Positions 383 to 26,419 of a stretch of 52,547 nucleotides of DNA are shown piece after piece (the stretch's first letter is position 1; the number at the start of each line of letters is the position of its first letter). A program made the position numbers and the translations under genes. Under the pieces are notes generated by a model. That model was not told where the DNA came from. It saw only the letters and a program-made list of their open reading frames with translations, and did not search any database. The DNA is taken from assembly GCA_903907925.1 (NCBI GenBank), contig CAIVQB010000078.1, forward strand, positions 1-52,547, given 5' to 3'. The DNA comes from an uncultured Verrucomicrobiota bacterium (GTDB taxonomy: Bacteria > Verrucomicrobiota > Verrucomicrobiia > Limisphaerales > UBA9464).

Positions 383-772
383 TCAGACCGGCTTCCGCCC
401 TGGATATCCGGATTCGAGGTCGTGCCAGAATTCGATATCGTCCTCACCTTCTTCCCAGCAGAGGAGGACTTCGCGATCTCCGCGCAGGGATGGGAAATCC
501 ACCAGACCGCGGTCGAGATCCTTCACCTGGATTTGGAGGGCATTGATCTCCCGAATGATCTCCTGGAGCCGGGTCAGCGTTCTGAGGTGTTCATCGACCC
601 GTTCGCCACCGAGGTCCCGTCCTTCGGCGAGCAGCGGGGCGTTGCGTTCCTCGGCACGTCCCACTGCTTTTCCCAGACGTCGGATGTCCGGAAGCCAGCG
701 GCGGACCTTCGGCAGAAGGGCCCGGGCTTCGTCGAGCGTGTAGTGCTTGGAAAAGTGACGCTCGGCACTCAT
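383..772 (-). CDS. DUF2203 family protein
   Basis: A 129-residue soluble protein when started at ATG 772-770. That start overlaps the stop of the preceding TPR gene (TGA 771-769) as ATGA, with GGTGG just upstream. The frame stays open further upstream, but that would lie inside the TPR gene. Features fitting DUF2203 are the N-terminal 'YTLDEARALLPKVRRWL' helix, a charged coiled-coil middle, and the C-terminal run 'VKDLDRGLVDFPS' then 'REVLLCWEEGEDDIEFWHD'. The biochemical role of the family is unknown. It is the last gene of the long minus-strand train. Confidence 0.85.
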   Translation of the reverse strand: MSAERHFSKHYTLDEARALLPKVRRWLPDIRRLGKAVGRAEERNAPLLAEGRDLGGERVDEHLRTLTRLQEIIREINALQIQVKDLDRGLVDFPSLRGDREVLLCWEEGEDDIEFWHDLESGYPGRKPV

Positions 773-2571
773 TTGCCACCGTCGATCTTGCGCTGCACGG
801 CGTCGCTCTTTTCGACCTTTACCGACTGAACCCAAGCCTCGTGCGCCTCGGACTTTCGGCCGACCGCAGCGAGAACATCCCCGAGGTGGTCGAGGACGGT
901 GGCATCGGGTTCATTGAGCAACCGCACGGCTTTTTGCAATGGGGCCACGGCTTCCTTGGCGCGCCCCAGGCGGAACAGCACCCAGCCGAGGCTGTCGAGA
1001 TACGCTGGATTCTCGGGGTCCGCCTTCACCGCTCGGCGGATCATGTCGTGGGCTTCCTCAAGGCGAACGCCTTTGTCGGCCCACATGTATCCCAGGTGGT
1101 TCAGCGCCTCGTCGAAGTCTGGTTTGAGTTTCAGGGATTTTTGAAGGTACTCGACCGATCGCTCCTCCTGACCGGCTTTTTCGAGCATCGCACCAATCTG
1201 AAAATAGAAATGGTGGTCCAGAAGTTCCGGCTGTTTTTCCTGGGCCGCGGTCTCCGCCGCCAGGAATCGGGTCATGGCCGCGTCATAGCGAAGCAGACGG
1301 CTGTTGGCCAGCGCCGCGAGGTATTCCCGGCGGAACTCGGGTTTAAACTGGCGCGCGGCCTTGTCGAGAATGACGAGTGCTTCCTCCGGTTTTTCCAGGC
1401 TGAGACGCGCGGCGGCAAGATCGGCGTAGATCGGTTCAAAATCGGGATTCAGCAGGACGGCACGCTCAAAATGCGAAGCGGCGCGAACGTAGTCCTTCGC
1501 CTCGTAAGCCAGCAATCCGAGGTAATAGAACGGAACCGGATTGGACGGATTCTCGCGCTTCAGGGCCTCCAATTGTTCACCGGCCTCCTTGTTCTTCCCG
1601 ATCCGAAGATAGAGTTCGGCCAGTTTGGCGGTCGGGCGCGGATCGCGCGGAAACCGCGTGCGCAGGCCCTGATAGATCGCCTCCGCCTTTTCTGGCAAAC
1701 CCACTCCTTCGTAGCGTTCGCCCATGCGTTGAAGGACGCCCGGATCGTCGGGATTCAGTCCGGCCGCCTTCTCCAACGCGGATCGGGCGGCGGCGATGGA
1801 TCGGGGTGCGGCGTTGGTGTCCTGCACCGCGTGTTGGCGGAACAATTCTGCCAGATCGACCCAGTACGCGGGCTCGGTGACGGTCACCGAGGCGGCCTGC
1901 TCCAGCGTGGACAACACCTGGGTTCGATGGCCGGAACCGGCCTGAAGTTCCGCCAGCGCCTTGTAGTTGGCCAGGTTCTCCGGTGACAGCCGAATGGCGT
2001 CCCGGTAGGCTGCCATCGCTTCATCCTTTTTGCCCAACTGACCGAGGGTCACCGCGAGGAGAGATTGGATGGTCCCTGCCAGTTCGGAACCGGTTGAACG
2101 GGCCGCGGAGCGTCGAAGGATTTCCAGAGCGGCCTCCGCTTCCTTGCGTTCGAGGAATCGCCGTGCGAGGTCGATCGCCAGTGAAAGATTGTCGGGATCG
2201 TTGGCGAGGGATTTGCGGAACAGGTCGAGGGCGCCAGTGGTGCCCTCCTCGTCCTGCCGGATCATGGCCGCCGCAAATGCCGCATGCGCCTCGGCGCGGC
2301 GCTCGATCTCCGCCTCGGATTCGGCCGCCTTTGGATCCGTCACCCGTCGTGTCGATGACCGTGCCTCCGATCGAACCGGCTTGGGCGCATCGGTCGGCGG
2401 CGTAGGCCGGTGAATCGGGACACGGGCGCACCCGTGGAAGAAGATCCCGGCGAACGCAAGGATCAACGCCACACGGCATCCGGTTGAACCAGGACGTGAA
2501 ATTGGAGGCTGCACGGGCAAATGACAACGCGGCTCCACCGAGGCGGAGCCGCGCCTTGAAAAAAGTGCCAT
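769..2571 (-). CDS. TPR-repeat lipoprotein
   Basis: A 600-residue protein made mostly of tetratricopeptide repeats, at least ten units from about residue 90 to 590 (for example 'NHLGYMWADKGVRLEEAHDM' and 'DSLGWVLFRLGRAKEAVAPL'). The N-terminus has a hydrophobic stretch ending in FFHGC, with Cys48 a likely lipobox, so the protein is probably membrane-anchored on the periplasmic side. TPR arrays are protein-interaction scaffolds; the partner is unknown. The first 30 codons look weakly coding and include a DNA hairpin (2529-2552), so the true start may be a later non-ATG codon. It lies 30 nt after the AURKAIP1-like gene and overlaps the DUF2203 gene by 4 nt. Confidence 0.85.
   Translation of the reverse strand: MALFSRRGSASVEPRCHLPVQPPISRPGSTGCRVALILAFAGIFFHGCARVPIHRPTPPTDAPKPVRSEARSSTRRVTDPKAAESEAEIERRAEAHAAFAAAMIRQDEEGTTGALDLFRKSLANDPDNLSLAIDLARRFLERKEAEAALEILRRSAARSTGSELAGTIQSLLAVTLGQLGKKDEAMAAYRDAIRLSPENLANYKALAELQAGSGHRTQVLSTLEQAASVTVTEPAYWVDLAELFRQHAVQDTNAAPRSIAAARSALEKAAGLNPDDPGVLQRMGERYEGVGLPEKAEAIYQGLRTRFPRDPRPTAKLAELYLRIGKNKEAGEQLEALKRENPSNPVPFYYLGLLAYEAKDYVRAASHFERAVLLNPDFEPIYADLAAARLSLEKPEEALVILDKAARQFKPEFRREYLAALANSRLLRYDAAMTRFLAAETAAQEKQPELLDHHFYFQIGAMLEKAGQEERSVEYLQKSLKLKPDFDEALNHLGYMWADKGVRLEEAHDMIRRAVKADPENPAYLDSLGWVLFRLGRAKEAVAPLQKAVRLLNEPDATVLDHLGDVLAAVGRKSEAHEAWVQSVKVEKSDAVQRKIDGGK
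2529..2552. other. GC-rich hairpin at the 5' end of the TPR gene
   Basis: The arms gcggctcc (2529-2536) and ggagccgc (2545-2552) form a perfect 8-bp stem with an 8-nt loop. In the minus-strand transcript the T-run (from the plus-strand a-run 2559-2564) comes before the stem, so it does not look like a standard intrinsic terminator for the minus-strand operon. It lies in the first codons of the TPR reading frame. It could restrain translation initiation or be a repeat incorporated into the leader. Confidence 0.5.
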
Positions 2572-2601
2572 GCCCGGAAGGCGGCCTGAGAGACAGACCG
2601 G

Positions 2602-2703
2602 CTACTTCTGCCAGGTCCGCTTCTTATGGCGGTTCTGCCGAAGCTTCTTCCGCCGCTTGTGCTTGTTGATCTTTGCCTTCCGACGCTTCTTAAGTGAACC
2701 CAT
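2602..2703 (-). CDS. AURKAIP1/COX24-domain small basic protein
   Basis: A 33-residue, extremely Lys/Arg-rich protein that begins MGSLKKRRKAKINKHKRR and ends RHKKRTWQK. ATG is at 2703-2701 and TAG at 2604-2602. The sequence matches the bacterial AURKAIP1/COX24-domain proteins, whose eukaryotic relatives are mitochondrial small-ribosomal-subunit proteins, so a ribosome-associated role is likely. It lies 28 nt after hisG and 30 nt before the TPR gene on the same strand. Short length and basic composition make such genes easy to miss. Family recognition is from sequence pattern; ribosome binding in this organism is inference. Confidence 0.8.
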   Translation of the reverse strand: MGSLKKRRKAKINKHKRRKKLRQNRHKKRTWQK

Positions 2704-2731
2704 AGCTCGTGTGTTTCTGCGATGTGTCCGT

Positions 2732-3631
2732 TCAGTACACCACTTTGTTGAGCGGATACTCGATGATTCCCTCCGCACCGGCGGCTTTTAGTTGTGGGAT
2801 AAATTCACGCACCACCGATTCGTCGATGATGGTTTCCACAGCCACCCAGCCGGAGAGACTCAAACTGGACACCGTGGGATTACGCAATGCCGGAAGCGAT
2901 TGCAACAACTTCGGCAGGTCCGCCTCGCGAATATTCATCTTGAGACCGACCTTGGCCTCGGCCTCGATGGCTCCGCGGAGCAGCAATGCGAGGGTCTCCA
3001 CCTTGGTCCGTTTCCAGGAATCCTTCCAGGCGGTGTGATTGGCGATCAACCGCGGCGTCGACACCAGAAGCGTCTCAACGATGCGCAGTTTGTTGGCCCG
3101 GAGCGAGGAACCGGTCTCGGTGACCTCGACGATGGCGTCGACCAATTCGCGGGCTTTCACCTCGGTGGCACCCCAGGAGAATTCGACCTCCGCCTTCACG
3201 CCATTTTTGCGGAGCCAGCGCTTGGTCAATCCCACCACCTCGGTGGCGATGCGGCGGCCTTCGAGATCCTTGACCGATTTGATGGGCGATTCCTCGGGAA
3301 CCGCCAGCACCCAGCGGGTCGGTTGACGCGTGGATTTGCTGAACAGAAACTCACCCACCTCATGGACGTCGCTGTGGTTTTCCTGGATCCAGTCGAGTCC
3401 GGTGATGCCGGCGTCCAGATAGCCCAGTTCCACGTAACGGCTGATTTCCTGGGCCCGGATCAGGCGGATCTGCAGCTCCGCATCGTCCACGTACGGCTCA
3501 TAACTGCGCGAGGAGACCGTGATGTTCCAGCCGGCCTTGGCCATCTTTTCGATGGTGGCGTCCTGGAGCGATCCCTTGGGCAGCCCCAGCTTCAGCGTGG
3601 GCGGCTTCTTATCCGGAGTGGTCCTGCTCAT
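2732..3631 (-). CDS. hisG: ATP phosphoribosyltransferase, long form
   Basis: A 299-residue cytoplasmic enzyme for the first step of histidine biosynthesis (ATP + PRPP to phosphoribosyl-ATP). Visible features are N-terminal '[20 protein letters not shown]', '[17 protein letters not shown]', and the PRPP-site region '[14 protein letters not shown]'. The region from about residue 210 to the end matches the regulatory C-terminal domain of the long HisG_L form, which is feedback-inhibited by histidine and needs no HisZ. No other his gene is in the window. It overlaps the end of the preceding 53-aa gene by 23 nt, suggesting translational coupling. Confidence 0.95.
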
Positions 3632-3770
3632 CTTTGGAAAGCGTTCGATTCTCCGCGCGGAGCCGGGGTCTCGAAAACACCTTCGACGATTCCTTCACCC
3701 GCGTGGACGGGTTGACCTGCCAGAGAACTCGGGGTCGGGCGATCTTTTTCTGACGCGACTTGCGGGCCAT
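3609..3770 (-). CDS. Small basic protein, unknown function
   Basis: A 53-residue frame starting [20 protein letters not shown] and ending KDEQDHSG. The ATG (3770-3768) lies 4 nt after the stop of the large VWA gene, and the 3' end overlaps hisG by 23 nt. The tight placement in an otherwise gap-free operon supports translation. The N-terminal half is strongly basic, as in nucleic-acid-binding or ribosome-associated small proteins, but I do not recognise a family. A longer in-frame extension to 3956 lies inside the VWA gene and looks like shadow coding. Confidence 0.6.
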
Positions 3771-3774
3771 GGGA

Positions 3775-6666
3775 TTACTGACGGCGCGCACGGCGCTTGG
3801 CTTCGAGCAACCTGCTGGTGGTGCCGGTGCGCGGATCGGCAGCCGCTGGATCCGCTGCCGGTTGGGCCGCGGAATCCGCGCCGGGTGCGGGTGCCGCGCC
3901 AGCCGGGGACGCTCCCGATCCGGCACCCGACGGCGGAATCGGCGTGGCCGGTCCACCGCGGGGTAGGAACAGGCGTTCGTCGACCGCGGGTGCCGTGGTG
4001 GCCCGGGTTTCGCGAACCTGATCGCGTCGATTCAACAAGGCACCGAGCGATTCCTGACCGGCCACCGCCCGTTGGACATCACCCAATCCCACCGCCGCCC
4101 GAAGCTTCCGCCAGGCCTTGGCCCATTCTTCACGATCGATGTCGACCCGCCGCACCGCGACATCGAGGACAAACAGGATCACGAACCACTTGAGTAACAC
4201 CTCCCAAAGATCGCGGGGCTGAAAGGTTTTGAGCCGGTTGAGGGTGAACGGATTGTCCACCAACGGATCCAGGAGTTTGCCCGCGCCCGCTTCCGCCAGG
4301 CGCCGAAGCAGATTGAGGTTGGGCTCGACCGCGGCAAATTCCGGCGAATAGTTCACACTGGCTCCGACCACCTGCGACCCGACCGGTTTTCCGTCGCGCA
4401 GTTCCATCAGGTTGAGCAGATAGGCACCGACTTCCCGGGTAGGAAATTTCGCTTCGTAGCGTCCCGGACCAGTCTGCTCCAAAGCCACGTTGATCCGCTG
4501 TCCCTTGGGACTGACGACTGCCGTTTGAAGGTTGAGAAAGTTTCGGAAATTGCCCTGCGGATCGAGCGCTTCGACGGACAGGATCCCCTGCCCGTTTTCC
4601 ACCGACACCTCGGTGTTGAAATCGGCGGTGTCGACCCGGCGCAACGCCCAGTTGGCGGTCTGCGACCAGAACTGACGGAACCGGTCCCAGGCCATCCAAT
4701 CCTGCGCCCACTTCGGTCGCGCATCACTGGTGAAGGCCACTGCCCGGCCCAGTCCATACTGCCAGTGTGCGAGCACCGGATCGCCCTTGTCACTGACCAG
4801 CGGCGTCTCCGCCCGCGGACGGCTGGTGGTTGCCACATAGCCGCGCAACACCGGCAACTCGCCACCGCCGATGCCGCGAAGCAGCTCGCTGGAGGCCGCC
4901 ACCTGCGGACGGAACGGTTCCTCGATGATGGCGGACTTGAGGATGACCGAGGCCTCTTTGATGAAGATCTGCGGCAGTTCAGCCGCGGATTTCACATCAT
5001 AGAACCGGCCCCTGCCCTGCTCCGCCATCTGGACCATGGTGGTCGGCTGGACATGCGCGCCGATCATCACGGTGGTGATGGTGATCTTGTGATTGACGAT
5101 GTCCTGCATCAACTGCGGCGTCGGTGCGTTTGGATCCCCATCGCTGAACACGACCATGTGTTTGAGATTGGCCGAGGACTTCTGCAGCGCGGTATTCGCC
5201 AGAGACATCAATCCTTGAAAGCTCGGAAGATCCCCCTGGTTCATGCCAGCGATCGCCGCCGCCAATTTCTGTTTGGTGCCGACCGGTTGGAGATCAAACA
5301 GCGCATGTTCCGTCCCGTCCCATAACCACACGCCCAATTCATCCTGCGGCCCCAGGGCATCCAGTGCGGCGATTCCGATTTCGCGCGCCACCTGGTTTCC
5401 GTTGGCGAATTCCATGCCGTGCATAATCAGGCCCAAAGCGCCCTTCGGCAGGACCTTCTTGGAACTCAATTCCATGTCCACCGGCAACGCCTCTTCCAGC
5501 GCGGTACCCCGGTATCCTCCAGCGCCAAACGCCTGGTCCCCGCCAATCACCACCAGGCCGATGCCGAAATCCCGCACCGCACTTTGCAACAATTGCATCC
5601 GGTCGCGCCCCAGATCGCCGGCCGACACGTTGCTCAGCAGGATCTCATCGTAGCTCTGCATCTCCGCCAGCGTGGCCGGGAGGCGGTCCAGACCGGCGAG
5701 TTCGACCTCCAGCTTCCCACTGCGCAAGGCCGCGGCGAGGGTTCGGTCCTGCGTGGGATCGGACGACAGCAGCAACACCCGTGGATCGCCCCGCACATTG
5801 ACGAAGCTGGCCGCCTTGTTGTTCTGCGGAACGGTATCGCCGTCCGCCTCCACCTGGACCTGATAGGAATAGAATCCCGCCTCCGGCAGGGTCTGCGGGA
5901 AGGTGAACAGATTCTTACCAGCTTCGAGGTGCACCTTTTGTTCGCCGAGCAATTGATCGTTCCGGAACAGCCGGACCCGGGCATCGCGAACCCGGTCCGA
6001 GGTCGCGAAGATCTTCGCATCGAAGGTCTGGCCCTTCTTGATCGTCGACGGAAGCCCGAGCTTCTGGACCGCGACATCATCACTCCGTGAGACGCCGAGG
6101 GGAACGATGTCCAACGTGACCCCGAGCGGCCGGGCCGCGAGCAATGCCGCCATGGAATCGCCCACGTTTTCATTGCCATCGGAAAAGAGAACCAACCGCT
6201 TCTGTCCCGCCTCGGGGAATGCGGCAGTCCCCAGGCGGATGGCCCCGGCGATGTCAGTCCGTTCACCGGCCACCACCGCCTGAATCTTCTCCGCCTCCGC
6301 GACCGCGGTGGCCGTGGTCTCAAGCGCCGCATCGGTGCCGAAAACCAGAAAGCCGGCCTTGTCGACCGGTCGCTTGGCCTTCGACCAGCGATTGGCCCAA
6401 TCACGAGCCTGTTCCTGCTGGCCGGACGGAATCGAATCCGAACGATCGAGCAGGAAGAAGGCGTTCATGCCCTCCTGCGGTTTCTTCCACTGGATTCCGG
6501 CGATCCCAAGAATGAGGAGAATCACCACAAGAACCCGGAGTCCAGTGGAGCCCCAGCGTCGCCACGCCACGAGTGAGACGTCGGATTTCCAGGCGAGCCC
6601 CAGCGTCCAGATCCCCGCCGGGATGAGCAGGAACAACCAGGCGGGATGAGTGAACTGAAAGCTCAT
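3775..6666 (-). CDS. Large VWA / glutamine-amidotransferase-like membrane protein
   Basis: A 963-residue membrane protein. Two N-terminal helices (about 10-26 and 43-60) lead to a VWA domain with a MIDAS-type D-x-S-x-S at residues 74-78 (DRSDS). A class I glutamine-amidotransferase-like fold follows at about 290-400 ('VLLLSSDPTQDRTL', 'GLVVIGGDQAFGAGGY'). A second, degenerate VWA-like part lies at about 405-570. A C-terminal helix at about 836-856 is followed by an Ala/Pro-rich tail. This layout is typical of the large partner in bacterial MoxR/DUF58/VWA clusters; its function is not known. The start ATG overlaps the upstream permease::NHL stop as ATGA. Confidence 0.85.
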   Translation of the reverse strand: MSFQFTHPAWLFLLIPAGIWTLGLAWKSDVSLVAWRRWGSTGLRVLVVILLILGIAGIQWKKPQEGMNAFFLLDRSDSIPSGQQEQARDWANRWSKAKRPVDKAGFLVFGTDAALETTATAVAEAEKIQAVVAGERTDIAGAIRLGTAAFPEAGQKRLVLFSDGNENVGDSMAALLAARPLGVTLDIVPLGVSRSDDVAVQKLGLPSTIKKGQTFDAKIFATSDRVRDARVRLFRNDQLLGEQKVHLEAGKNLFTFPQTLPEAGFYSYQVQVEADGDTVPQNNKAASFVNVRGDPRVLLLSSDPTQDRTLAAALRSGKLEVELAGLDRLPATLAEMQSYDEILLSNVSAGDLGRDRMQLLQSAVRDFGIGLVVIGGDQAFGAGGYRGTALEEALPVDMELSSKKVLPKGALGLIMHGMEFANGNQVAREIGIAALDALGPQDELGVWLWDGTEHALFDLQPVGTKQKLAAAIAGMNQGDLPSFQGLMSLANTALQKSSANLKHMVVFSDGDPNAPTPQLMQDIVNHKITITTVMIGAHVQPTTMVQMAEQGRGRFYDVKSAAELPQIFIKEASVILKSAIIEEPFRPQVAASSELLRGIGGGELPVLRGYVATTSRPRAETPLVSDKGDPVLAHWQYGLGRAVAFTSDARPKWAQDWMAWDRFRQFWSQTANWALRRVDTADFNTEVSVENGQGILSVEALDPQGNFRNFLNLQTAVVSPKGQRINVALEQTGPGRYEAKFPTREVGAYLLNLMELRDGKPVGSQVVGASVNYSPEFAAVEPNLNLLRRLAEAGAGKLLDPLVDNPFTLNRLKTFQPRDLWEVLLKWFVILFVLDVAVRRVDIDREEWAKAWRKLRAAVGLGDVQRAVAGQESLGALLNRRDQVRETRATTAPAVDERLFLPRGGPATPIPPSGAGSGASPAGAAPAPGADSAAQPAADPAAADPRTGTTSRLLEAKRRARRQ

Positions 6667-9134
6667 GATCGCGGCCCTTCGCCGTTCTCCGCGGTCGCCG
6701 CCAGCCGTTGTCCGGTGCCACCACCCCTGGCGATCAGCTTCTGGACCCGGTGATTCTGCGAGTCGGCCACGTAAAGATTGCCGTGGGAATCGAAGGCAAT
6801 GGCCCAGGGATTGGCAAACCGGCCGGGATCCGAACCGGCAGATCCGATCACTTCGATCAAACGGTCGTCTGAGCCAAAGATACTGATGCGCGAATTGCCG
6901 AACTCACACACGAATTGGCGACCCGACGCATCCACTCGAATGTCGTACGGATAGCTCAACCCGCCGGGATCAGAGCCCGCCGTTCCGTGGGCCCGCACGA
7001 AAACCCCTTCCCGGGAAAACACCTGAATGCGGTGATTACAGGAGTCAGCGACGAACACCTGTCCCGCGCCGTTGATGCAGACTCCTTCCGCCCGGTTGAA
7101 GTGACCCGGTTCAACACCCGGGGCACCGCAGGTCATTTCAAAAACACCGGCGGGCGAAAACCGCTGCACGCGGTCAACCACCGTGTATTCGCTCACGAAG
7201 TACCGGCCATCGGCTCCCACCGCAATCGAGCGCGGCAGGATCATTTCTCCAGGGGCGGTGCCCTTCACACCCCATTGCCGGACCAACCGGCCGGTGGTCG
7301 TAAAATGGTTCACTCGCTGATAGTGGGGTTCCACCACGATGATGTTGCCATCGGGATCCAGGGACATGCCCTTGGGCTTTCCCAGATCGGTCTGCGGCAT
7401 CTGCCATTGCAGGAGCCAGCGTCCTTCGGAATCAAATTTCTGGATCCGACCGGTGATATCCGCCACGTAGAGATTGTCTTCACGATCACAGACCAGCGAG
7501 CGCGGCTTGTTGAATTGTCCCGGAGCCACCCCGCGGCCGCCGATCACTCGGACGCCGGTAAAAACCTTGGATTGGATCGGGAACTCACGGCTCGCTCCAA
7601 CCGCGGTCGTCGCCTCGCTCTCACCACTTCCCGAACAACCGCCGACCAGCAACGTTCCGAACAGCAGAATCCCCAATCCCGCCGCGCGCGTCCGGGTCGG
7701 ATGAACGCGACCCAGCCGTGTCCGCAGGGCGCGGATCAGTCCATACCCGATTCCTGGAGCGAGTGCCATGATCAGCAACACCACGCAGAGCGCGTTCACC
7801 TGGGTGCCGTGCCCGTAGTGCAGCAGATTGAAGACCCGCAGGGCGAGCGTTTCACCCCCGGGAGGTTGGATCAAAACGATCGTCTCCACATCCCACAGGC
7901 AGAGCAAATAGACGGCGTACCAGGCAAACCCGGCCGAGTGCCGGAGCTGGGGCCATTGCACGTCGCGAAACACCCGCCATTCGCCTGCGCCGCTGGATCG
8001 GGCGGCGTCCGCCTGATCGCGATCCAGGGTTCGCCATCCTTCGCCGATCACCATCCACGCCGGAGCGAGATAGCGGATCACCAATGCCAGCAGAAGAATT
8101 CCAACGCTTTGATACACAGGTCGTGCCCAACCCTGATTCAACACGCGGATCAACAACACGCCTTCAAACACGCCCGGCAACAGGAACAACACCCATGCCG
8201 GAATCAGCGCCCATTTCAGGACCCGCCTCAACCCACGCGACGTTCCGCCGCCGCCACGATTCCACCCTGCCAGCGCAAGCGCGAGCGCAACCACCGCCGT
8301 CGCGGACACTCCTGCGGTGAAGAGCGATTGGCGCATCGCACTACCACCTGCGGCGATGGCACCCGACAATTCGGTCCAAGTCCGGCCCGCGACCGACAGT
8401 TGGGTCAGCGGAAAAACCAACGCCACGCACCACCACAACGCCATCCACGCGGACGCCGCGGACGTCACAGGTCCGAGATGCTGCCGAAAGACGGCGGGAT
8501 CCAGAGCGGGGACAAGACGCGGCCACGAAATGCGCTGTCGACCCACCCAGAGCAGGACCGCCGGCGGCAGGAGCAGCAACGGCCACGCGGCGAGGAGGGC
8601 GCCGGCCAGGTCGAACTGGGTGTTGAACCGGACCCAGAATTCCTCGGTGAACACCCGGACTTGAAACAGCGTGGGCACCGTAAAGTTGGCCAGTGCAAGG
8701 GCAAAGGTCACTGCAACGGCCACCCGTAATTCACCACTCGCCGCCGGCAGCAGCAGCCTTCGGAACAACAGGAAGCCCCGCCCGGCGACGCCCGACTCCA
8801 GATGCTCGGTCTGCACCCGACTCCATCCGCCGAGAACCAGGAACAACGTGATCGGCCACAGCCCGGTGGCCAGCACCAGAGCGACCAACGGCAGCGTCGC
8901 GAAGGCCACCCATTCCGGCGCTTCGACTGCACGCCACGTCGCCGTGACCTCCAGCCACGCGTTGGCCGCCAGGAACGGCGGCAACGCCAGGCTCAGGATT
9001 CCAGAAACCAGAATCCAGCGACGCCATCGCCGCGTGGACATCGCCACCACCGCCGCCGCAACGCCCGAGGCCACGGCCAGCATCGTGGCCAGCACGCCAA
9101 CCCCGATCGAAGGGAGGAGGAGCGTCGGGTTCAC
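6663..9134 (-). CDS. ABC permease (iron(III) type) fused to six-repeat NHL propeller
   Basis: An 823-residue protein. Residues 1 to about 485 are very hydrophobic, with around 11-12 predicted helices resembling two-copy FbpB/HitB-type permeases (two halves, each with an 'EAA-like' loop; the second includes 'RSSGAGEWRVFRDVQWPQL'). A basic linker is followed by a hydrophobic helix ending LLVGGC at Cys500, which looks exactly like a lipoprotein signal. Residues about 515-810 contain six NHL repeats ('NLYVADSQNHRVQKL', 'QVFVADSCNHRIQVF'). The frame is continuous, with no internal ATG near the junction; a TTG just before the helix is the only plausible separate start. It follows the binding-protein gene with a 4-nt overlap. 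No ABC ATPase is nearby. Confidence 0.85.
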   Translation of the reverse strand: MNPTLLLPSIGVGVLATMLAVASGVAAAVVAMSTRRWRRWILVSGILSLALPPFLAANAWLEVTATWRAVEAPEWVAFATLPLVALVLATGLWPITLFLVLGGWSRVQTEHLESGVAGRGFLLFRRLLLPAASGELRVAVAVTFALALANFTVPTLFQVRVFTEEFWVRFNTQFDLAGALLAAWPLLLLPPAVLLWVGRQRISWPRLVPALDPAVFRQHLGPVTSAASAWMALWWCVALVFPLTQLSVAGRTWTELSGAIAAGGSAMRQSLFTAGVSATAVVALALALAGWNRGGGGTSRGLRRVLKWALIPAWVLFLLPGVFEGVLLIRVLNQGWARPVYQSVGILLLALVIRYLAPAWMVIGEGWRTLDRDQADAARSSGAGEWRVFRDVQWPQLRHSAGFAWYAVYLLCLWDVETIVLIQPPGGETLALRVFNLLHYGHGTQVNALCVVLLIMALAPGIGYGLIRALRTRLGRVHPTRTRAAGLGILLFGTLLVGGCSGSGESEATTAVGASREFPIQSKVFTGVRVIGGRGVAPGQFNKPRSLVCDREDNLYVADITGRIQKFDSEGRWLLQWQMPQTDLGKPKGMSLDPDGNIIVVEPHYQRVNHFTTTGRLVRQWGVKGTAPGEMILPRSIAVGADGRYFVSEYTVVDRVQRFSPAGVFEMTCGAPGVEPGHFNRAEGVCINGAGQVFVADSCNHRIQVFSREGVFVRAHGTAGSDPGGLSYPYDIRVDASGRQFVCEFGNSRISIFGSDDRLIEVIGSAGSDPGRFANPWAIAFDSHGNLYVADSQNHRVQKLIARGGGTGQRLAATAENGEGPRS

Positions 9135-10123
9135 GGGCGAAACAGTTTCCGAATCTGGACGGTGGCCCGGTCCAGATCAACGAGCAGCGCCGGCCAGTTG
9201 GGCTGAAGGCTCGGGCCAAAAACCGCACCGGCTTCCAGGGCGTCGGCGGCGATCAACCGCTCCTGGACTCCCGGCCGCGAGAGAAAGTTGAACAACGCCT
9301 CCGCGGCCTCCGGATGCGGGCACTCGCGGACAACTCCGACGGTGTTCGGCAGCATCAACATCTCAGGCCCGGCAGGGAGCGCGGCCACACTCCATCCTTC
9401 GCGGCGTCCGGCGGCGATGTCATCGGAATCCGTCAGCCCCACCCAGGCTTCCCCGCGCGCGACGCGGCGCACGACCTGCGAATTTCCCTCCTCGATGAAC
9501 GGCCGGTTGGCGGCGAGCGCGCGGCACCATTGCAGCCATCGGGCTTCACCCCAGGCCTGCCGGAGCGCCATGAAGTGAGTGGCCGTGGTCCCAAACCCCG
9601 GGAAGGCGAAGGAGATTTTTCCGCGCCATGCCTGATTCGTCAGCTCCACCAGCGATTGAGGTGCCGCGGCGGTCGCGAGGCGCTGAGGGTTGATGACCAT
9701 TCGGCGCGATCGATGACCGAAGGCGATCCAGCTGTTCGTCTCCCGGAAGACGCCGGCCGCGGCCAGTTGGCGGCAGCGAAATTCCTCGTTGCCCCAGAAC
9801 ACGTCACCAACCGGATGCCGGCGTTCCGCCAACAACCTGTTCGCCAAACCCACAGTCTTGACGGCTTCACTATCAAAGACCGGCAACACCCGAATCCCGG
9901 TCGACTGATGAAACTCCGCAAGGATCGGTTCCGCGAACACCTGATCCTGCGCGCAATACAGATGAACCACGGGTGCCGATTCGGCCACAACCGGGATCGG
10001 TCCCGCCAACGACAGAATGAGGCCGGCCACTAGGCTGAAAATGCCGCACAGGATCTGGCTCGAAGAACTGAACCCGGGGTTCCCGGCTGTCGACGGCGTC
10101 CGCGCTGGAAGTTTCATTTTCAT
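9131..10123 (-). CDS. Iron(III)-type ABC transporter substrate-binding protein
   Basis: A 330-residue exported protein from ATG 10123-10121. The signal peptide has a hydrophobic core at about 24-41 and a likely cut near VVAES. The mature part 'VVHLYCAQDQVFAEPILAEF', 'GDVFWGNEEF', 'TNSWIAFGHRSRRMVINP' matches the FbpA/AfuA extracellular-binding family, which binds Fe3+ or other small anion/metal ligands. An alternative GTG at 10135 overlaps the upstream stop as GTGA and adds four residues. The 3' end overlaps the permease::NHL start by 4 nt, so the two are surely co-translated. The actual ligand cannot be read from the sequence. Confidence 0.85.
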   Translation of the reverse strand: MKMKLPARTPSTAGNPGFSSSSQILCGIFSLVAGLILSLAGPIPVVAESAPVVHLYCAQDQVFAEPILAEFHQSTGIRVLPVFDSEAVKTVGLANRLLAERRHPVGDVFWGNEEFRCRQLAAAGVFRETNSWIAFGHRSRRMVINPQRLATAAAPQSLVELTNQAWRGKISFAFPGFGTTATHFMALRQAWGEARWLQWCRALAANRPFIEEGNSQVVRRVARGEAWVGLTDSDDIAAGRREGWSVAALPAGPEMLMLPNTVGVVRECPHPEAAEALFNFLSRPGVQERLIAADALEAGAVFGPSLQPNWPALLVDLDRATVQIRKLFRP

Positions 10124-10131
10124 CACGCACT

Positions 10132-10356
10132 TCACGTCGAACACGAGGTCACCAGAATTGGAACGAGAAAGGTCGTTGCGGCAATGGCCCATCCCAAGCC
10201 GCACCAGCGTCGCCAGCGGGTATGCCCGAGGCGATGCGACATCCAGCCCCCGACCATGAACAACAACATGGCCGCCGCGGCGATGTACCAGACGACGATG
10301 GCCATCCGGTACCATCCCGGGGCTGTCGAAGTGAAGGCGTTGGAATGAAATTTCAC
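10132..10356 (-). CDS. 74-aa two-helix membrane protein, unknown
   Basis: Start chosen at GTG 10356-10354, which overlaps the TGA of the upstream VWA gene as GTGA and has GGAGG five bases upstream, one of the few clear ribosome-binding sites in the window. The product has two membrane helices (about 19-38 and 52-70) joined by a basic loop 'HRLGHTRWRRWCGLGW', so the loop is probably cytoplasmic. I recognise no family. It lies between the BatA-type VWA gene and the ABC binding protein, so it may be a connector or subunit of that membrane assembly (inference). Confidence 0.7.
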   Translation of the reverse strand: MKFHSNAFTSTAPGWYRMAIVVWYIAAAAMLLFMVGGWMSHRLGHTRWRRWCGLGWAIAATTFLVPILVTSCST

Positions 10357-12218
10357 GCGGTCCTCCGGTGAAACCACCACCATTCGAACATCAGGATTCC
10401 GAGCCCGCCCAAGGCAAACCAGCGCCAGTATTCGAGATTGGCCCGCTGCACGCGGGCAGCCCCGACCGTTCCGTGGCGACCGAGGCTGAGTTCCCGGCGC
10501 GGCGCAATGTTGCTTTCCGTCGCATCCAGCAGATTGGCACAGAACTCGACCTGATTGGTGCCGTAATTCACGCGATACACGCCCTGCCGCGACGTCTCGC
10601 CAAACACGATCTCACGGGCATCCGGACCCAGCGGCAGCTTCCACACCACGCCACTGGGCACGGTCACCGTGGCCTCGACCGGATGACCCGACGCCTCGCC
10701 CAACGGCATCCGAAAGGCATCACCCGCGCGGATTTGAAACAAGTCCGACCGGGCGGTCGCCGGATTCAGCCATTCCATCGCGTTGGCAACGAAGATGGGG
10801 AAACTGATCCGCAGCGGCCACGTGCTCTGCAGCGTATCGAATCCAATCCACACAATCCGTTGCCGGCCGAATTCCCCGGCCAGGACCAGCGGTGCCGACG
10901 GCGAATCAACCAGTGAAACCGCCCAGGTCGGCGTCTTCACCGCGAGCGTTGAAGCGACCTGAACGTTGTCGAGACTGACAAAACGCAACAACGGATGAGT
11001 GTTCTTCCAATCGACCACCGGCGGTGCCTCGAGGCTCCCGATCCCCTCGGGAAACCAGTTGGTCGTGCCCACGTGGATGGCCAGGACGTTGCCCGACGGC
11101 ATTGTCTGGGGGAGGACATCGTCCAGAATCACGACGTCGGCATGCTGCGTCGCCGCTCCCAGATCGGTGGCTGTTGAGACCTCCACGTTGGGTCCGGACG
11201 CTGCGACCGCGCGTTCGAGAAAACGATTACCACGACTGATCAGCAGGACGCGGATGGGTTCTGGAAGCCGGCTGACGATGCTTGCCTGATTGTCCGCGGC
11301 CAGATCGTCCTTCGAGTTGAGCCGGACGGAGAAGATCCCGTTGCGCGGTTGCGCCGCCGCGAACACCACCGGCGTGGAATTGGTGGCCGCAACGGAAACA
11401 GATTTCGATTCAATCACCTGGCCGTCGAACAACAACTCCAGCGTGGTTTCGGCAGACTCCGCGGAAAAATTGGCGACATTGACAAACACCGCGCGGCGGG
11501 ACGGATCCTCGGGATTCAGTTTCACGTCCAGCGACACGATGCCCAAGTTCGACGAACGGATCCCGACCGGATGATAGACCAGCCGCAAATCCTTGGTTTC
11601 AAACTCGGTCAGATCCACGCCGGCACCGTCGGAAAACAGATGAATCTCGGCACCCGGCTTGTCACGGGTCAGCGTCTCCGCCACCCGCAACGCCTCCGCC
11701 AATCGTGTCGGAGCATCGGTGACTTCGGCGGCCAGCAGTGCCCGGCGCAGCGCCGATTTCTCCGAAGTGGCCGATTGTTTCACCTCGGCCGCCGCGCCGG
11801 CGACCATCAGCAACATCTGTTGATTCCCGTCGCCCATGCCCGTCTTGAGGCCGTCCACGAGGGTCAACGCCTCCTTCCGCGCCCGCTCAAATCGACTGGG
11901 CGATTCATCCGTCGCCTGCATCGAGGCACTGGCGTCCAGAATCACGACCTGCAGCGTCGCCTCACCGGTGGTTCCGGAAAAATAGGGGCGAGCCAGGGCG
12001 AGAACCACCAGCAGCAGGAGCAGCAATTGGAGCAAAAGAAGCCAGTTCCGACGCAGCTTCTGGAACGGCGCGCTCGCCTGGTTCTCGGCCAGGAACCGCT
12101 GCCAGAGGACAGTCGAAGGAACCAGCCGGACGACCCGCTTGCGTTTGAGCAGGTAGAACACCACCACCACCGGCAATGCGATGGCGAAGAGAAAGGCGAT
12201 GGGAGACAGGAAACTCAT
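10353..12218 (-). CDS. BatA-type VWA membrane protein
   Basis: A 621-residue protein. An N-terminal BatA region has helices at about 6-24 and 58-77 ('LPVVVVFYLLKRKRVVRLVP', then the 'FQKLRRNWLLLLQLLL' segment). A VWA domain follows with MIDAS motif DASAS at 95-99 and 'IHLFSDGAGVD'. The middle is a periplasmic beta-rich part with an amidotransferase-like segment ('IRVLLISRGNRFLERAV'). A final helix near residue 600 is rich in Trp. BatA-type proteins typically act with MoxR ATPases and DUF58 proteins, often in maturation of envelope or metallo-enzymes. The start overlaps the cytochrome gene stop (ATGA), and the end overlaps the 74-aa gene. Confidence 0.88.
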   Translation of the reverse strand: MSFLSPIAFLFAIALPVVVVFYLLKRKRVVRLVPSTVLWQRFLAENQASAPFQKLRRNWLLLLQLLLLLLVVLALARPYFSGTTGEATLQVVILDASASMQATDESPSRFERARKEALTLVDGLKTGMGDGNQQMLLMVAGAAAEVKQSATSEKSALRRALLAAEVTDAPTRLAEALRVAETLTRDKPGAEIHLFSDGAGVDLTEFETKDLRLVYHPVGIRSSNLGIVSLDVKLNPEDPSRRAVFVNVANFSAESAETTLELLFDGQVIESKSVSVAATNSTPVVFAAAQPRNGIFSVRLNSKDDLAADNQASIVSRLPEPIRVLLISRGNRFLERAVAASGPNVEVSTATDLGAATQHADVVILDDVLPQTMPSGNVLAIHVGTTNWFPEGIGSLEAPPVVDWKNTHPLLRFVSLDNVQVASTLAVKTPTWAVSLVDSPSAPLVLAGEFGRQRIVWIGFDTLQSTWPLRISFPIFVANAMEWLNPATARSDLFQIRAGDAFRMPLGEASGHPVEATVTVPSGVVWKLPLGPDAREIVFGETSRQGVYRVNYGTNQVEFCANLLDATESNIAPRRELSLGRHGTVGAARVQRANLEYWRWFALGGLGILMFEWWWFHRRTA

Positions 12219-12655
12219 GGGGCGCTACCGGGTCCGCGGGGCGCTGTGGTTTCCGATTTTTCCGCGACGAGGACATCCACCAGAACGGGCACCCGGTTGG
12301 TGGGAATCACCGCGCCAAACTTTCCCTGCATCTTCCCGACAATGGCCGTCCACTGCGCGCGGGTCAGCACGGGCTGGGTGGTCACGTAGTCCATCGAATG
12401 ACACAGCAGACAATTTCCGCGAAGCGCCTCGGCACCCGGCCGGCTCGACGCCACGACCACTTCCGTCGGCAGTTCCCAAACGTCGCTAGCGAAGGGATTT
12501 CGGACCGGTTCCACGGGTTGTCCCGCGAGGTCTGCGAACGCGGCGACCAGGGAAACAATCAGGGCAGTCACGACGGCAACCCTCCCCGACGTACGTCGTC
12601 GTCGATCCTCCGTCGGAGGTAACGTTTTCAACGATGTCGAATCCGGGTGTTTCAT
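12215..12655 (-). CDS. Sulfite dehydrogenase cytochrome c subunit (SorB-like)
   Basis: A 146-residue exported monoheme cytochrome. Hydrophobic segment about 25-45, then heme motif CLLCH at 82-86 in the context 'NCLLCHSMDYVTTQPVLT', and a likely axial Met in 'IVGKMQGKFGAVIP' (Met108). These match the SorB subunit of SorAB-type sulfite dehydrogenases, which passes electrons from the molybdenum subunit to the respiratory chain. It directly follows the SorA-like gene with an ATGA overlap, which supports the pairing. After the heme domain the C-terminus is short and Pro-rich. Confidence 0.85.
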   Translation of the reverse strand: MKHPDSTSLKTLPPTEDRRRRTSGRVAVVTALIVSLVAAFADLAGQPVEPVRNPFASDVWELPTEVVVASSRPGAEALRGNCLLCHSMDYVTTQPVLTRAQWTAIVGKMQGKFGAVIPTNRVPVLVDVLVAEKSETTAPRGPGSAP

Positions 12656-13896
12656 GTCGCGCGCACGTGGACCGATTCAACGCAGTTCCGCATGTAACCC
12701 GCCGGATTCCACAGCGGCTTGAGCGGCTGCGATTCTCCAAGCCGGTTGATGGCCCGGGCCATCAGGGTCATCGGTCCGACTTGTTGCGGCTGGATCGCAG
12801 TCGTCCATTCGCGAAAGGCAAACCGTCCCAGCGATGGCGACAGATCGGTCCCGGACCAGGTTCGCCCCGCGTCCGACGAGACCAAAACCTCGGAAATCCC
12901 TGCTCCGCCGTCAAAGGCCATGCCGCGGATCCGCGTCTCGCGACCCACCGGAATCGCATCGCCGGCAGCCAGGCTGGTGATGAACGAACGAACGTTGAGT
13001 CGCGTGATCGGAATCGTCCGCTTCGGCGTCGTGCCAGGCTCGATCGCCGCGCAGGGTTCATCCGGAATGCGGTAGCCGGGATTCATCCAGAACCCTTTGA
13101 ACTCATCGTCCACCACGGTGATCTCATGGACATGCTTCACCCAGTAGGTCCCGTAGTATCCGGGCACCACAAGACGCAGTGGAAACCCGTTCAACCACGG
13201 CAACGGCTCACCGTTCATCTCGAACGCCAGCAGAAGCTCGGGATCAAGAGCTCGATCGATTTCCAGCGCCTTGATGAAATCCGGCGTCTGCGGCAACAGC
13301 GGTGCATCCAGGCCGTTGAACAAAACCTGTCGCGCACCGGCCTGCAGTGCGGCCGCCTTCAACACGTCGGCCAGCCGCACGCCCCGCCAGCGGGCGCAAC
13401 CCATCGCGCCGTTTCCCAATTGCCCACCCGGCACACGCGGTTGGAAAAATCCGCGCCCGTTTCCGGCGCATTGATTCACCGCAACGACTTCGGCGACTTC
13501 AAACCGGGTCTTCAATTCCGCCACGGAAAAGATCAACGGCGTCTGCACCCGACCGGCGATTGTCAGCCGAAACGAGTCGGGCTCCAGCAGGGCGCGACGG
13601 GGCGGCGATTGCGTCAGATGGTATCGAACGAAAAACGCGTCGTTCGGCGTCAGCAGGCTTTCGTTGAACACCGCCATCGGTGTTTCCAATTGCGGCGGTC
13701 GCGTGGTGAGACGGATGAGTGGACGCTTCTGCGGATACTTAACCAGAGGCCGGATCCCATGTTCAAACGCCTGCTCGATCACCTCGCCCGCTAAGATGGG
13801 ACGCACGCCGGCAATCCCGGCACCAACCCCCGCCGCCCAAGCCGAGGTGGCGCGGAGAAACGAGCGACGGGATCCGCGCAGCGGGTCGAGGCTCAC
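12652..13896 (-). CDS. Sulfite oxidase family molybdopterin subunit (SorA-like)
   Basis: A 414-residue protein started at GTG 13896-13894, which overlaps the DUF58 stop as GTGA with GGAGGT eight bases upstream. The frame is open to 13992, but that part lies inside the DUF58 gene. A twin-arginine signal (SRRSFLRA, Arg10-Arg11) implies folded export with cofactor. The oxidoreductase molybdopterin domain carries the Mo-ligating Cys143 in 'VVAVNQCAGNGR', with 'FNGLDAPLLPQTPDFIKAL' and 'LRLVVPGYYGTYWVKHV'. A C-terminal Mo-co dimerisation domain starts around residue 300. Sulfite is the likely substrate given the SorB partner, but a related methionine-sulfoxide or other substrate cannot be excluded. 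Confidence 0.88.
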   Translation of the reverse strand: MSLDPLRGSRRSFLRATSAWAAGVGAGIAGVRPILAGEVIEQAFEHGIRPLVKYPQKRPLIRLTTRPPQLETPMAVFNESLLTPNDAFFVRYHLTQSPPRRALLEPDSFRLTIAGRVQTPLIFSVAELKTRFEVAEVVAVNQCAGNGRGFFQPRVPGGQLGNGAMGCARWRGVRLADVLKAAALQAGARQVLFNGLDAPLLPQTPDFIKALEIDRALDPELLLAFEMNGEPLPWLNGFPLRLVVPGYYGTYWVKHVHEITVVDDEFKGFWMNPGYRIPDEPCAAIEPGTTPKRTIPITRLNVRSFITSLAAGDAIPVGRETRIRGMAFDGGAGISEVLVSSDAGRTWSGTDLSPSLGRFAFREWTTAIQPQQVGPMTLMARAINRLGESQPLKPLWNPAGYMRNCVESVHVRAT

Positions 13897-14801
13897 GCCC
13901 ACACCTCCGCAGTCCGCAATTGTTTCAGCAGCAGTTCGCCCAGGTCTGTCGAACTCGCCACCGTCGCGAACCGAATGCCCCGTCCGGTGCAATACTCGCG
14001 TAAACGTTCCAAATAATTGGCCACCGATTGCCGGTAGGCCGACATCCGGTATTTGCCGAAGGTCACCTCGGTTTCCGCGCCCGACTCGGAATCCACCAAC
14101 CGCAGGTCGCCGAACGTCGTTGGGTCGAGTTCCTCGGGAGCGAGGATTTGAATGGCCGTCACCTGAAATCCGCGACCGATCAGCGCCGTCAAGCCCGCCT
14201 CGTATCCGGCCGGATCGAGAAAATCACTCAGCACCAGCGCGGCTCCGGTCTGACGGGCCTCCATCGCGCCCCGTTTCACCGAAGCATTGAAATCGGCCGC
14301 ACCGCCAGCCGTGAGCTGCGACAGACTCTTGAAAAAGGTGAGCGACGACGTCTTGCCACGGACGGATCGCAGCGCCCCGCGAGCCGCGGCCTCCGGCGGT
14401 TGAAGAGTCGCGCCCGGCTCGGGAAAACACTGAATGGAAACGCGGTCGAATCCGCAGAGCGCGACATAACCCACCGCGGCGGCGACCCGGCGTGCAAAGT
14501 CGAACTTCGACGGGGAGCCGAAGTTCATGCTTTCACTGCAATCAAGGAAGATGCGCAGCGGCAGTTCGCGCTCTTCCTCGTAGAGTTTGAGGAAGAGTTT
14601 GTCGAGACGGCCAAAGAGGTTCCAATCGAGGTAACGGAGATCGTCGCCGAGGACGTAGTTCCGGTGATCGGCGAATTCCACGCTGAGGCCGCGAGCGCGA
14701 CTGCGGCGTTCACCCTTGAGTGAGCTCTTGGCACGCCGGGCCGCCAGCAGTTGTAACTGCTCCAGTCGGCGCAAGAGATCCGGCGGCAAAAGGGCGTTCA
14801 C
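13893..14801 (-). CDS. DUF58 protein (VWA-like)
   Basis: A 302-residue cytoplasmic protein beginning at GTG 14801. The DUF58 signature 'GLSVEFADHRNYVLGDDLRY' is at residues 38-57, and a MIDAS-like D-x-S-x-S at 87-91 (DCSES) lies in a VWA fold. DUF58 proteins normally lie directly after a MoxR AAA+ ATPase and before BatA-type VWA genes. Here the upstream side is a 373-nt spacer and no MoxR is in the window. The gene starts the long minus-strand train and overlaps the SorA-like gene by 4 nt, so DUF58 and sulfite dehydrogenase are produced together. Confidence 0.9.
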   Translation of the reverse strand: MNALLPPDLLRRLEQLQLLAARRAKSSLKGERRSRARGLSVEFADHRNYVLGDDLRYLDWNLFGRLDKLFLKLYEEERELPLRIFLDCSESMNFGSPSKFDFARRVAAAVGYVALCGFDRVSIQCFPEPGATLQPPEAAARGALRSVRGKTSSLTFFKSLSQLTAGGAADFNASVKRGAMEARQTGAALVLSDFLDPAGYEAGLTALIGRGFQVTAIQILAPEELDPTTFGDLRLVDSESGAETEVTFGKYRMSAYRQSVANYLERLREYCTGRGIRFATVASSTDLGELLLKQLRTAEVWA

Positions 14802-15174
14802 AGGGGGAGAAAGAGATCCGCCGCCAAGCTTGTCGAAGGACCGGCGGAGAACAAGGGAATCCGGTCGGATGAATTGATTTGGAAAACATGAAAGCAGGAG
14901 GGGATCACCGCGCGACGGCAGGTCTATGCGGTCATTTCATCCATGGATTTACGAGAGTTGGCGGGCTCCCCGACCGCGTGAACACGGGACTCCGGGGAAC
15001 GGGGCGGGTCGCGACTCCCTGGGCGATGTTCACAACTGGTATGGGACCGGGGCCTTTGGCCCGCGGAACGGCGGGCGCACCTGCCTCCCTGCTGACTCAG
15101 TCGCTCGTTTTCCCGTTTTCCCGTCTTCCCGTTTTCGCCATCCTGCTTTCCTGCCTTCCAGATTCGAATCCCCC
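14802..15174. repeat. Spacer with composite inverted repeat, copy 2
   Basis: No convincing gene in this 373-nt gap. A purine-rich segment at about 14879-14900 (ggaaaacatgaaagcaggag) opposes a pyrimidine-rich arm at 15102-15159. A core with cgggactccg lies at about 14986-14995. The words and their order match the copy at 145-350, so this is a second member of the same element. The spacer also must hold the promoter of the DUF58-led operon, but I see no clear -35/-10 pair. Confidence 0.55.
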
Positions 15175-22840: not shown

Positions 22841-22920
22841 CCGGCCGGCTGACCGGCATCATGACTGTGGGCGGGATCCTTGGGACCCCGCACCCGAAAT
22901 CCATCGCTATCCCCCGTCCC

Positions 22921-24699: not shown

Positions 24700-24708
24700 T
24701 CCCACGCC

Positions 24709-25950: not shown

Positions 25951-25963
25951 CCCCACGCGTCCC

Positions 25964-26419
25964 ATGAGCCCTCTCCATTGCAACCGGTCCTCCACCCACG
26001 TTTCGCCCGCGGCGCGACGCCTTCGCCGGCGCGCCTTCACGCTGGTGGAAATGCTGCTCGTCATCACCATCATCGGCATTCTTGCCGCCCTCGTGGTTCC
26101 CAAGATGATGGGCCGAAGCGAGCAGGCGCGCCAGGCGGCCGCCCGCGCCGACATCGCCGCCATCAAGACCTCGCTCGATTCCTTCGAAGTCGACAACGGC
26201 TACTATCCCAAGAGTCTGCAGGACCTGATCCAACCACCGCGCGACGCGCGCAACTGGCACGGACCTTATCTCGACAAGCTCCCGCAGGATCCCTGGGGCT
26301 TCGACTACCTCTACGCCCAGCCCGGCCGCCACAACGCGACCTCCTATGACCTGTCGTCGGTCGGACCCGACGGCAAGGCCGGAACCGACGATGATTTTGG
26401 CAACTGGACATCCAAGTAA
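25964..26419 (+). CDS. gspG: Major pseudopilin GspG
   Basis: A 151-residue prepilin with a basic leader, cleavage motif A/FTLVEM (Ala at -1 rather than the usual Gly), and a hydrophobic N-terminal helix 'LLVITIIGILAALVVPKMMG'. The C-terminal fold has 'YYPKSLQDLI', 'DPWGFDYLY' and the calcium-binding loop 'GPDGKAGTDDDFGNW', which are GspG hallmarks. The chosen ATG 25964 is 13 nt after gspF; an open extension upstream lies inside gspF. It forms the body of the pseudopilus. Confidence 0.93.
   Translation: MSPLHCNRSSTHVSPAARRLRRRAFTLVEMLLVITIIGILAALVVPKMMGRSEQARQAAARADIAAIKTSLDSFEVDNGYYPKSLQDLIQPPRDARNWHGPYLDKLPQDPWGFDYLYAQPGRHNATSYDLSSVGPDGKAGTDDDFGNWTSK

Follow-up and report, generated by a model that had tools for sequence, protein, structure and literature searches.

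Fusion of an FbpB-like ABC permease to an NHL propeller across a lipobox in a conserved VWA gene cluster of Verrucomicrobiota

The DNA analyzed here, referred to as the window, is the entire 52,547-nucleotide contig CAIVQB010000078.1 (contig C78 of genome G000) from the draft genome of an uncultured Verrucomicrobiota bacterium of the order Limisphaerales (assembly GCA_903907925.1; 4.6 Mb in 148 contigs). It carries a train of eight genes on the minus strand, at positions 3775-14801, one of which encodes an ATP-binding cassette (ABC) permease fused in frame to an NHL propeller. Neighboring genes of the train overlap by 4 nucleotides at six of the seven junctions. From the DUF58 gene to the last gene, which encodes a VWA/GATase protein, these junctions are GTGA, ATGA, ATGA, GTGA, an 8-nucleotide gap between a 74-residue open reading frame (ORF) and the gene for a solute-binding protein (SBP), GTGA, and ATGA. 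The train is packed more densely than its surroundings, yet 4-nucleotide overlaps also occur elsewhere in the window, at 7 of the 29 same-strand neighbor pairs outside the train as delimited by a mechanical gene caller. An earlier note on this DNA had the overlapping train begin at position 383. The coupling of the eight genes agrees with that description, but the true extent is 3775-14801, and the genes for DUF2203, a TPR protein and HisG at 383-3631 lie outside the train, from which they are set apart by a 143-nucleotide gap (3632-3774).

The train opens with the gene for a DUF58 protein of 302 residues (13893-14801; Pfam DUF58, 111.8 bits), followed by the genes for a SorA sulfite dehydrogenase (12652-13896) and a SorB-like monohaem cytochrome (12215-12655). 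Next are a BatA-type VWA membrane protein of 621 residues (10353-12218; Pfam BatA and VWA_2), the hydrophobic 74-residue ORF (10132-10356), the SBP of 330 residues (9131-10123, with the start at 10123), the fused protein of 823 residues (6663-9134; Pfam NHL and a weak BPD_transp_1 match), and a VWA/GATase1_like membrane protein of 963 residues, here called VWAG (3775-6666; Pfam VWA_2, VWA and GATase1_like). The DUF58, BatA, SBP, fused and VWAG genes are core members of the cluster and SorA and SorB are optional ones, while the 74-residue ORF is a genus-level accessory. It has no NCBIfam match, and matches to a three-sequence profile were confined to the window's own genus (the window, L102, L104 and L096; L and G numbers denote loci and genomes). 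The three VWA-type proteins all keep metal-ion-dependent adhesion site (MIDAS)-like DxSxS motifs, which read DCSES in DUF58, DASAS in BatA and DRSDS in VWAG.

In an AlphaFold2 model of the fused protein (pLDDT 86.7), the permease half consists of 12 helices with the fold of the FbpBC permease (Foldseek 9j4r, TMt 0.72), and the C-terminal half is a six-bladed NHL propeller (Foldseek 6xg7, TMt 0.90). The permease half is an FbpB-like dual permease. The halves are joined by a positively charged stretch, an apolar helix at residues 479-497 and Cys500, and a flexible linker follows the helix in the model. The hydrophobic residues 479-499 (7638-7700, minus strand, as for all features of this gene) have the appearance of an internal lipoprotein signal peptide, and residue 500, in the sequence LLVGGC (7635-7637), is its lipobox cysteine, invariant in 22 of 22 aligned fusions (alignment A1, 22 rows). 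Two coupling-helix motifs of the permease, presumably of the EAA type, are also conserved: E113, G120 and P130 in residues 113-131 (8742-8798), and D371, G382, P395 and Q396 in residues 371-396 (7947-8024), are invariant or nearly so in A1.

The features of the join recur in the 92 fused genes that were collected, with a positive n-region and an apolar h-region ahead of the cysteine; the net charge of the n-region is at least +1 in 87 of the 92, and the h-region holds on average 0.14 polar residues per ten positions. The lipobox cysteine is present in 92/92 (88/92 by a strict pattern), a count in which the picking of the cysteine favors lipobox-like sites, whereas alignment A1 is free of such bias. 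The cysteine picked at first was doubtful in four fusions (L047, L167, L172 and L176) and was re-picked in L167, L172 and L176. The linker from the end of the permease profile to the cysteine has a median length of 21.5 residues and reaches at most 99. A three-histidine zinc site in the propeller (H604, H701 and H795, from A1) was considered and dropped, as the last two histidines are not kept outside the order.

Because genes counted as fused have, by definition, no stops in their linkers, the openness of the frame was judged on the 96 loci in which permease and NHL sequences lie side by side. One open frame is shared in 92 of these, while neutral linkers would be expected from base composition to be free of stops in about 54 of 92 (an expectation without a p-value, since the genes share ancestry). 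Internal starts upstream of the lipobox were not enriched in the 92 fused genes compared to control windows, whether in-frame ATG codons (27 versus 24.7), any in-frame start (72 versus 74.9) or a start with a Shine-Dalgarno sequence (4 versus 6.1) were counted. The open frame and the lack of enriched starts suggest that translation probably gives a single chain, which contains what looks like a functional lipoprotein signal peptide. Both results also speak against the idea that the fusion is spurious, a product of assembly or gene calling, with a stop codon missed or the lipoprotein made separately from an internal start. Separate neighboring genes do exist in L084-L087, the first three pairs overlapping by 4 nucleotides, which would suit such an artefact. 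Even so, we consider this explanation extremely unlikely, and its assembly-error version is all but refuted. The permease::NHL fusion described in the earlier note is genuine, and it is conserved.

The gene neighborhood was compared in 60 neighborhoods, the best 80 of 259 contig matches and the window, 141 in total, which gave 108 distinct loci after removal of duplicates. The titles of the 80 contigs are either verrucomicrobial or not specific beyond bacteria (Pedosphaera, Limisphaerales, subdivision 3 and others), and some genomes contribute two loci with the halves on separate contigs. Gene identities were called with profiles built in this analysis, and the whole-genome searches covered Verrucomicrobiota. 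Across the 108 verrucomicrobial loci the conserved core order is MoxR-DUF58-BatA-SBP-permease::NHL-VWA/GATase. Where the contig is long enough, BatA is present in 65 and DUF58 in 60 of 71 loci. MoxR lies upstream in 37 of the 55 loci that have at least 8 kb of upstream sequence, with the complete MoxR-DUF58-BatA-SBP series in 32 of the 55. In the 84 loci where it could be tested, VWAG follows NHL in 78, of which 72 satisfy a position rule and six were found in the gene list. The DUF58/VWA genes, the SBP and the fusion thus form a conserved and tightly packed unit. When the fused protein was searched for in 96 genomes, the window's included, 83 gave matches at E 1e-3, many of them merely other NHL propellers, and 56 gave matches at E 1e-100 or better. 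No description of the operon or of the fusion was found in the literature, judged from titles and opening abstract lines. In L120 and L131 (G023 and G029), the fused gene is followed not by VWAG but by genes for a second NHL protein (361 residues, with a start resembling a twin-arginine translocation (Tat) signal) and a protein of about 1130-1180 residues.

Relatives outside the order carry the same components as separate genes. From the phylum, 240 genomes were drawn, 239 of them besides the window's own, with the labels same class or same phylum on those listed. Five of the 239 have a true VWAG orthologue (at least 898 bits; next best 581). The NHL lipoprotein occurs in the same five (at least 304 bits) and, at 290 bits, near a contig end in a sixth, G284 (next best 152). 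Seven genomes of this draw other than the window's own have a match to the profile of the fused protein at E 1e-40, and permease and NHL share one frame in none of them. In G311 (L205) the order is c7-SBP-permease-ABC ATPase-NHL lipoprotein-VWAG-MoxR-DUF58-BatA, and in G099 (L203) it is permease-ATPase-NHL-VWAG, all as separate genes. The lipobox is present in the NHL proteins of L203, L205 and L207 outside the order, and separate NHL genes inside the order keep it as well (L080, L081 and L084-L088 were checked). In G330 (L206:7871-9754) an ABC ATPase is fused in frame to the NHL lipoprotein, with KGMKVSLLFIFLLILSSC at the join and an internal methionine plus lipobox. It represents another fusion event involving this lipoprotein, independent of the first.

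In a tree of VWAG the order forms a clade of 83 rows (SH-aLRT, the Shimodaira-Hasegawa-like approximate likelihood ratio test, 100), and L203 with its separate genes is the sister. Of the rows in the clade, 76 are fused, three are proven splits nested among these (L081, L087 and L088), and in four the state is unknown (L092, L093, L095, and L083, in which the NHL frame runs off the contig end). With these four removed, the tree calls for four changes, namely one gain and three losses of the fusion, and because of this the history is read as one fusion with several re-splits. The permease-lipoprotein fusion probably arose once, with at least three lineages separating the halves again, and the ATPase gene was probably lost from the cluster at the base of the order. 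A further split is found in L084-L086 (genus g3), whose contigs lack VWAG and hence stand outside the tree. Metagenome-assembled genomes (MAGs) titled Akkermansia muciniphila also carry the system (L108, L117, L119, L124, L135 and L181); L135 and L181 fall inside the order clade, and these titles are therefore probably wrong.

That the fused and split states are both tolerated fits the idea that the mature proteins are separate anyway. The alternative is that the fusion stays whole and that the former signal peptide is a thirteenth membrane helix, which tethers the propeller as a built-in periplasmic receptor or gate. A tether would agree with the model, in which helix 479-497 precedes a flexible linker, and with the fused state as the rule in the VWAG clade (76 rows against three proven splits and four unknown). 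However, a plain anchor needs no cysteine after a small residue, yet this cysteine is kept in all fusions in a linker that is otherwise variable. The three splits in the tree and L084-L086 outside it show that a tether is dispensable, and the lipobox is retained where the NHL gene stands alone. We therefore regard a permanent tether as unlikely. A separated permease and lipoprotein would resemble the cytochrome b/c1 polyprotein FbcH of Bradyrhizobium, a single chain that is cut at an internal signal peptide by ordinary signal peptidase. In both cases a polytopic membrane protein and a membrane-anchored periplasmic protein are encoded as one chain with an internal signal peptide. They differ in that FbcH belongs to a respiratory complex, while here a transporter is concerned and the lipobox makes signal peptidase II the probable enzyme. 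To our knowledge, no other ABC transporter has a polyprotein cut by signal peptidase II, and none appeared in a literature search, judged from its listings. The internal lipobox offers a simple yes/no test of such a polyprotein.

The SBP has the FbpA fold, as indicated by Foldseek matches to HitA (6ivy) and TtFbpA (3wae), by phmmer matches to FbpA relatives in the PDB, and by Pfam SBP_bac_11/6. Its sequence TDSDD aligns to TNHYY of TtFbpA, so that the Tyr-Tyr ligands of Fe(III) in FbpA are replaced. In alignment A4 (23 rows), T231, D232, D234 and D235 are invariant within a conserved motif TD-S/T-DD, and D84, E86, K89, N112, E113, R138 and R140 are likewise invariant. With the acidic TDSDD in place of Tyr-Tyr, the ligand is probably different from that of FbpA. 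The protein had been called an iron(III)-type binding protein; the designation holds for the fold but not for the iron ligands, and an iron(III) importer was rejected on this ground. In comparison to the FbpABC/HitABC ferric importers, the verrucomicrobial cluster is similar in the folds of SBP and permease, in the position of the SBP gene before the permease gene, and in the coupling motifs. It differs in lacking an ATPase, in the replaced ligands, in a permease that carries a lipobox and an NHL propeller, and in its placement among MoxR/VWA genes.

The coding strand of 101 permease loci was screened for ABC ATPases over an interval of -9 to +7 kb around the permease start, within the limits of the contigs, and none was found (150-bit threshold). 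Nevertheless, the two coupling motifs remain conserved in the permease. In G000, matches to TOBE_2 at E 0.1 were limited to contig C130, where the ATPase lies beside permeases that we take to be sulfate-type, and C92, where it lies beside another SBP (SBP2). The C92 pair of SBP2 and ATPase (L189:7949-10332) was considered as the dedicated partner of the fused permease. However, SBP2 occurs in 32 of the 96 genomes and an orphan dual permease on C15 (L308:7051-8769) in 34, with 31 shared. Given this near-identical distribution, the C92 pair and the C15 permease are a split ABC transporter of their own, and the pair was rejected as a general rule. In G002, G017 and G023, the fusion is present and the C92-type SBP and C15-type permease are gone, while a related TOBE-type ATPase (45-60% identical) is kept among the same kind of neighbors (the comparison took in L317, L322, L323 and L324). 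As an orphan retained after the loss of its own SBP and permease, this ATPase is a possible lender to the fused permease.

The permease and SBP may instead have lost transport and now act as an ATPase-free ligand sensor that signals to the MoxR-VWA machine. The lack of an ATPase in the 101 loci, the lack of a credible TOBE_2 ATPase in 3 of 19 genomes, and the degenerate signatures of the L205 and L206 ATPases (LSVGE and LSQGE) would all agree with a sensor. Conservation of both motifs that touch the ATPase does not, nor does the retention of an orphan ATPase in three genomes that lost its own partners, and we consider the loss of transport improbable, if worth keeping in mind.

The SorA of the train is a clear orthologue of the enzyme in PDB 2blf (E 2.5e-152, with the QCxGN cysteine aligned), which we take to be the SorAB sulfite dehydrogenase of Starkeya novella. 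It scores 601.3 bits on NCBIfam SorA, narrowly over the cut-off of 600, has both the molybdenum-site cysteine and the dimer domain, and begins with the Tat-like signal RRSFLR, all in agreement with the SorA-like molybdenum enzyme named in the earlier note. SorB has a single haem motif (CLLCH, of the form CxxCH) and reaches 69.5 bits on NCBIfam SorB, under the cut-off of 93. Apart from this lower score, the difference from Starkeya lies in the location of SorAB inside a VWA operon. The same note had also proposed that the train is a system for the assembly, supply or control of a periplasmic sulfite-oxidizing SorAB complex. The orthology of SorA would suit this proposal, as would the constant position of SorAB in a number of genera from family f1, where the gaps are often short, and a common clade of L149, L050, L113 and L070 in the SorA and BatA trees (remaining placements are not resolved alike, and the N-termini of the SorA rows were untrimmed). 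However, among 61 loci in which both DUF58 and BatA are visible, only 9 have SorAB between the two, and all nine belong to f1; a tenth contig with the same family label (L131) begins inside SorA and was left out of the count. The rest of the system is kept without SorAB across the order and partly outside it too. SorAB is thus an accessory of one family, probably either a passenger or a client in that family only. A general function in sulfite oxidation was rejected, and the proposal as a whole is very unlikely. This case warns against inferring the function of an operon from SorAB neighbors.

MoxR had been expected beside DUF58 and BatA. Among relatives it is indeed the usual upstream member, but the window contains no MoxR gene, and the gene upstream of the train is of the CobW type. 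Elsewhere in the genome there are five MoxR genes, four of which adjoin, or lie one gene from, the four other DUF58 genes (C29, C62, C85 and C143). The fifth stands alone at C139:11286-12272 and is 83% identical to the operon MoxR of L050. Since the other four full-length copies of DUF58 all have a MoxR nearby and that of the window does not, the lone C139 gene is likely its displaced partner.

Mxa genes of methylotrophs mature a Ca2+ propeller enzyme. The Mxa operons, like the Bat operons of Bacteroides, Borrelia and Leptospira, share with the verrucomicrobial operon MoxR, DUF58, a BatA-type VWA protein with MIDAS-like motifs and a second VWA protein, while the insertion of an Fbp-type SBP, a permease and an NHL lipoprotein among the VWA genes is a difference. 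In PMC7159879, MoxR-VWA pairs are regarded as chaperone and co-chaperone, and PMC5700661 describes MoxR, DUF58 and VWA neighbors without clear function. PMC9728263 lists the genes of the mox operon, with the roles of MxaJ, MxaR and MxaS not fully worked out. The bpMoxR ternary systems (PF20030), reported in PMC7159879 from Verrucomicrobia among others, also combine MoxR, VWA and a beta-propeller. As described there, their propeller is fused to the VWA protein, while the propeller of the present operon occurs as a lipoprotein or joined to an ABC permease. The operon MoxR of L050 scores 44.5 bits on PF20030 (cut-off 27), and its best Pfam match is AAA_3 (212 bits). An anti-phage system was considered and rejected, as the five proteins scanned gave no PADLOC match; unlike in the bpMoxR ternary conflict systems, the propeller is fused to the permease and not to VWA.

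The conservation of the unit, its gene order, the fusion, the lipobox and the absence of an ATPase from the cluster are observed features of these loci. On balance, we favor an Fbp-type importer or sensor module in a MoxR-VWA chaperone operon. Its permease and propeller lipoprotein would be made as a single polyprotein that signal peptidase II probably cleaves, and its ATPase would be supplied in trans. Cleavage, lipidation, the ATPase in trans and the relation of chaperone to client are what we infer. The fused protein would enter the membrane as a polyprotein. Lgt would lipidate it and signal peptidase II would cleave it at Cys500, yielding a 12-helix permease and a lipid-anchored propeller in a fixed 1:1 ratio. 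The SBP would deliver or sense the ligand, and the propeller would dock at the periplasmic face. The MoxR-VWA set (MoxR, DUF58, BatA and VWA/GATase) may chaperone, assemble or switch the complex of SBP, permease and propeller, to which another locus would lend an ATPase. The combined statement, that a permease-lipoprotein polyprotein separated by signal peptidase II arose once on loss of the intervening ATPase gene and has been kept across the order in a MoxR-VWA operon that chaperones an ATPase-borrowing transporter, stands at about an even chance. The target of MoxR-DUF58-VWA machines is a long-standing open question. A concrete candidate for such a client comes from the present operon, namely the Fbp-type permease with its SBP and the propeller lipoprotein, which stay with these genes throughout the order and in outside relatives as well, there with an ATPase.

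Several points weigh against this interpretation. Cleavage and lipidation of the fused protein are predictions from its sequence. No ATPase in trans could be assigned: the candidate of the window's own genome tracks the other orphan permease, and among 19 genomes of good quality that carry the fusion, G054 and G059 lack any TOBE_2 match and the sole match in G069 lies in an 86-residue frame. MoxR is not beside the cluster of the window but alone on C139. The VWAG tree was a rapid reconstruction that flagged L203 and L205 as long branches, and support is 84-90% at the nodes on which the position of the three splits depends. In addition, the L205 permease matched neither a Pfam family nor the permease profile, and was called by position and look. 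Finally, the fused protein is without a match in 13 of the 96 genomes and without one at E 1e-100 or better in 40, including G003, which belongs to the window's genus and is 95% complete; nearly all genomes are draft MAGs. As some genomes are without the fused protein, the system is not essential.

Three further features were noted in the window. The CobW-type protein upstream of the train is encoded at 15175-16209, and a gene of this type is kept upstream of DUF58 in L038 but occurs in few of the 60 neighborhoods. Genes for type II secretion (T2SSE, T2SSF, T2SSK and a GspD-like protein) lie on the plus strand beside the train, at 22861-33333. A short intergenic repeat is present close to both ends of the region, at 306-363 and 15138-15164, the best pair being 89% identical over 27 nucleotides.

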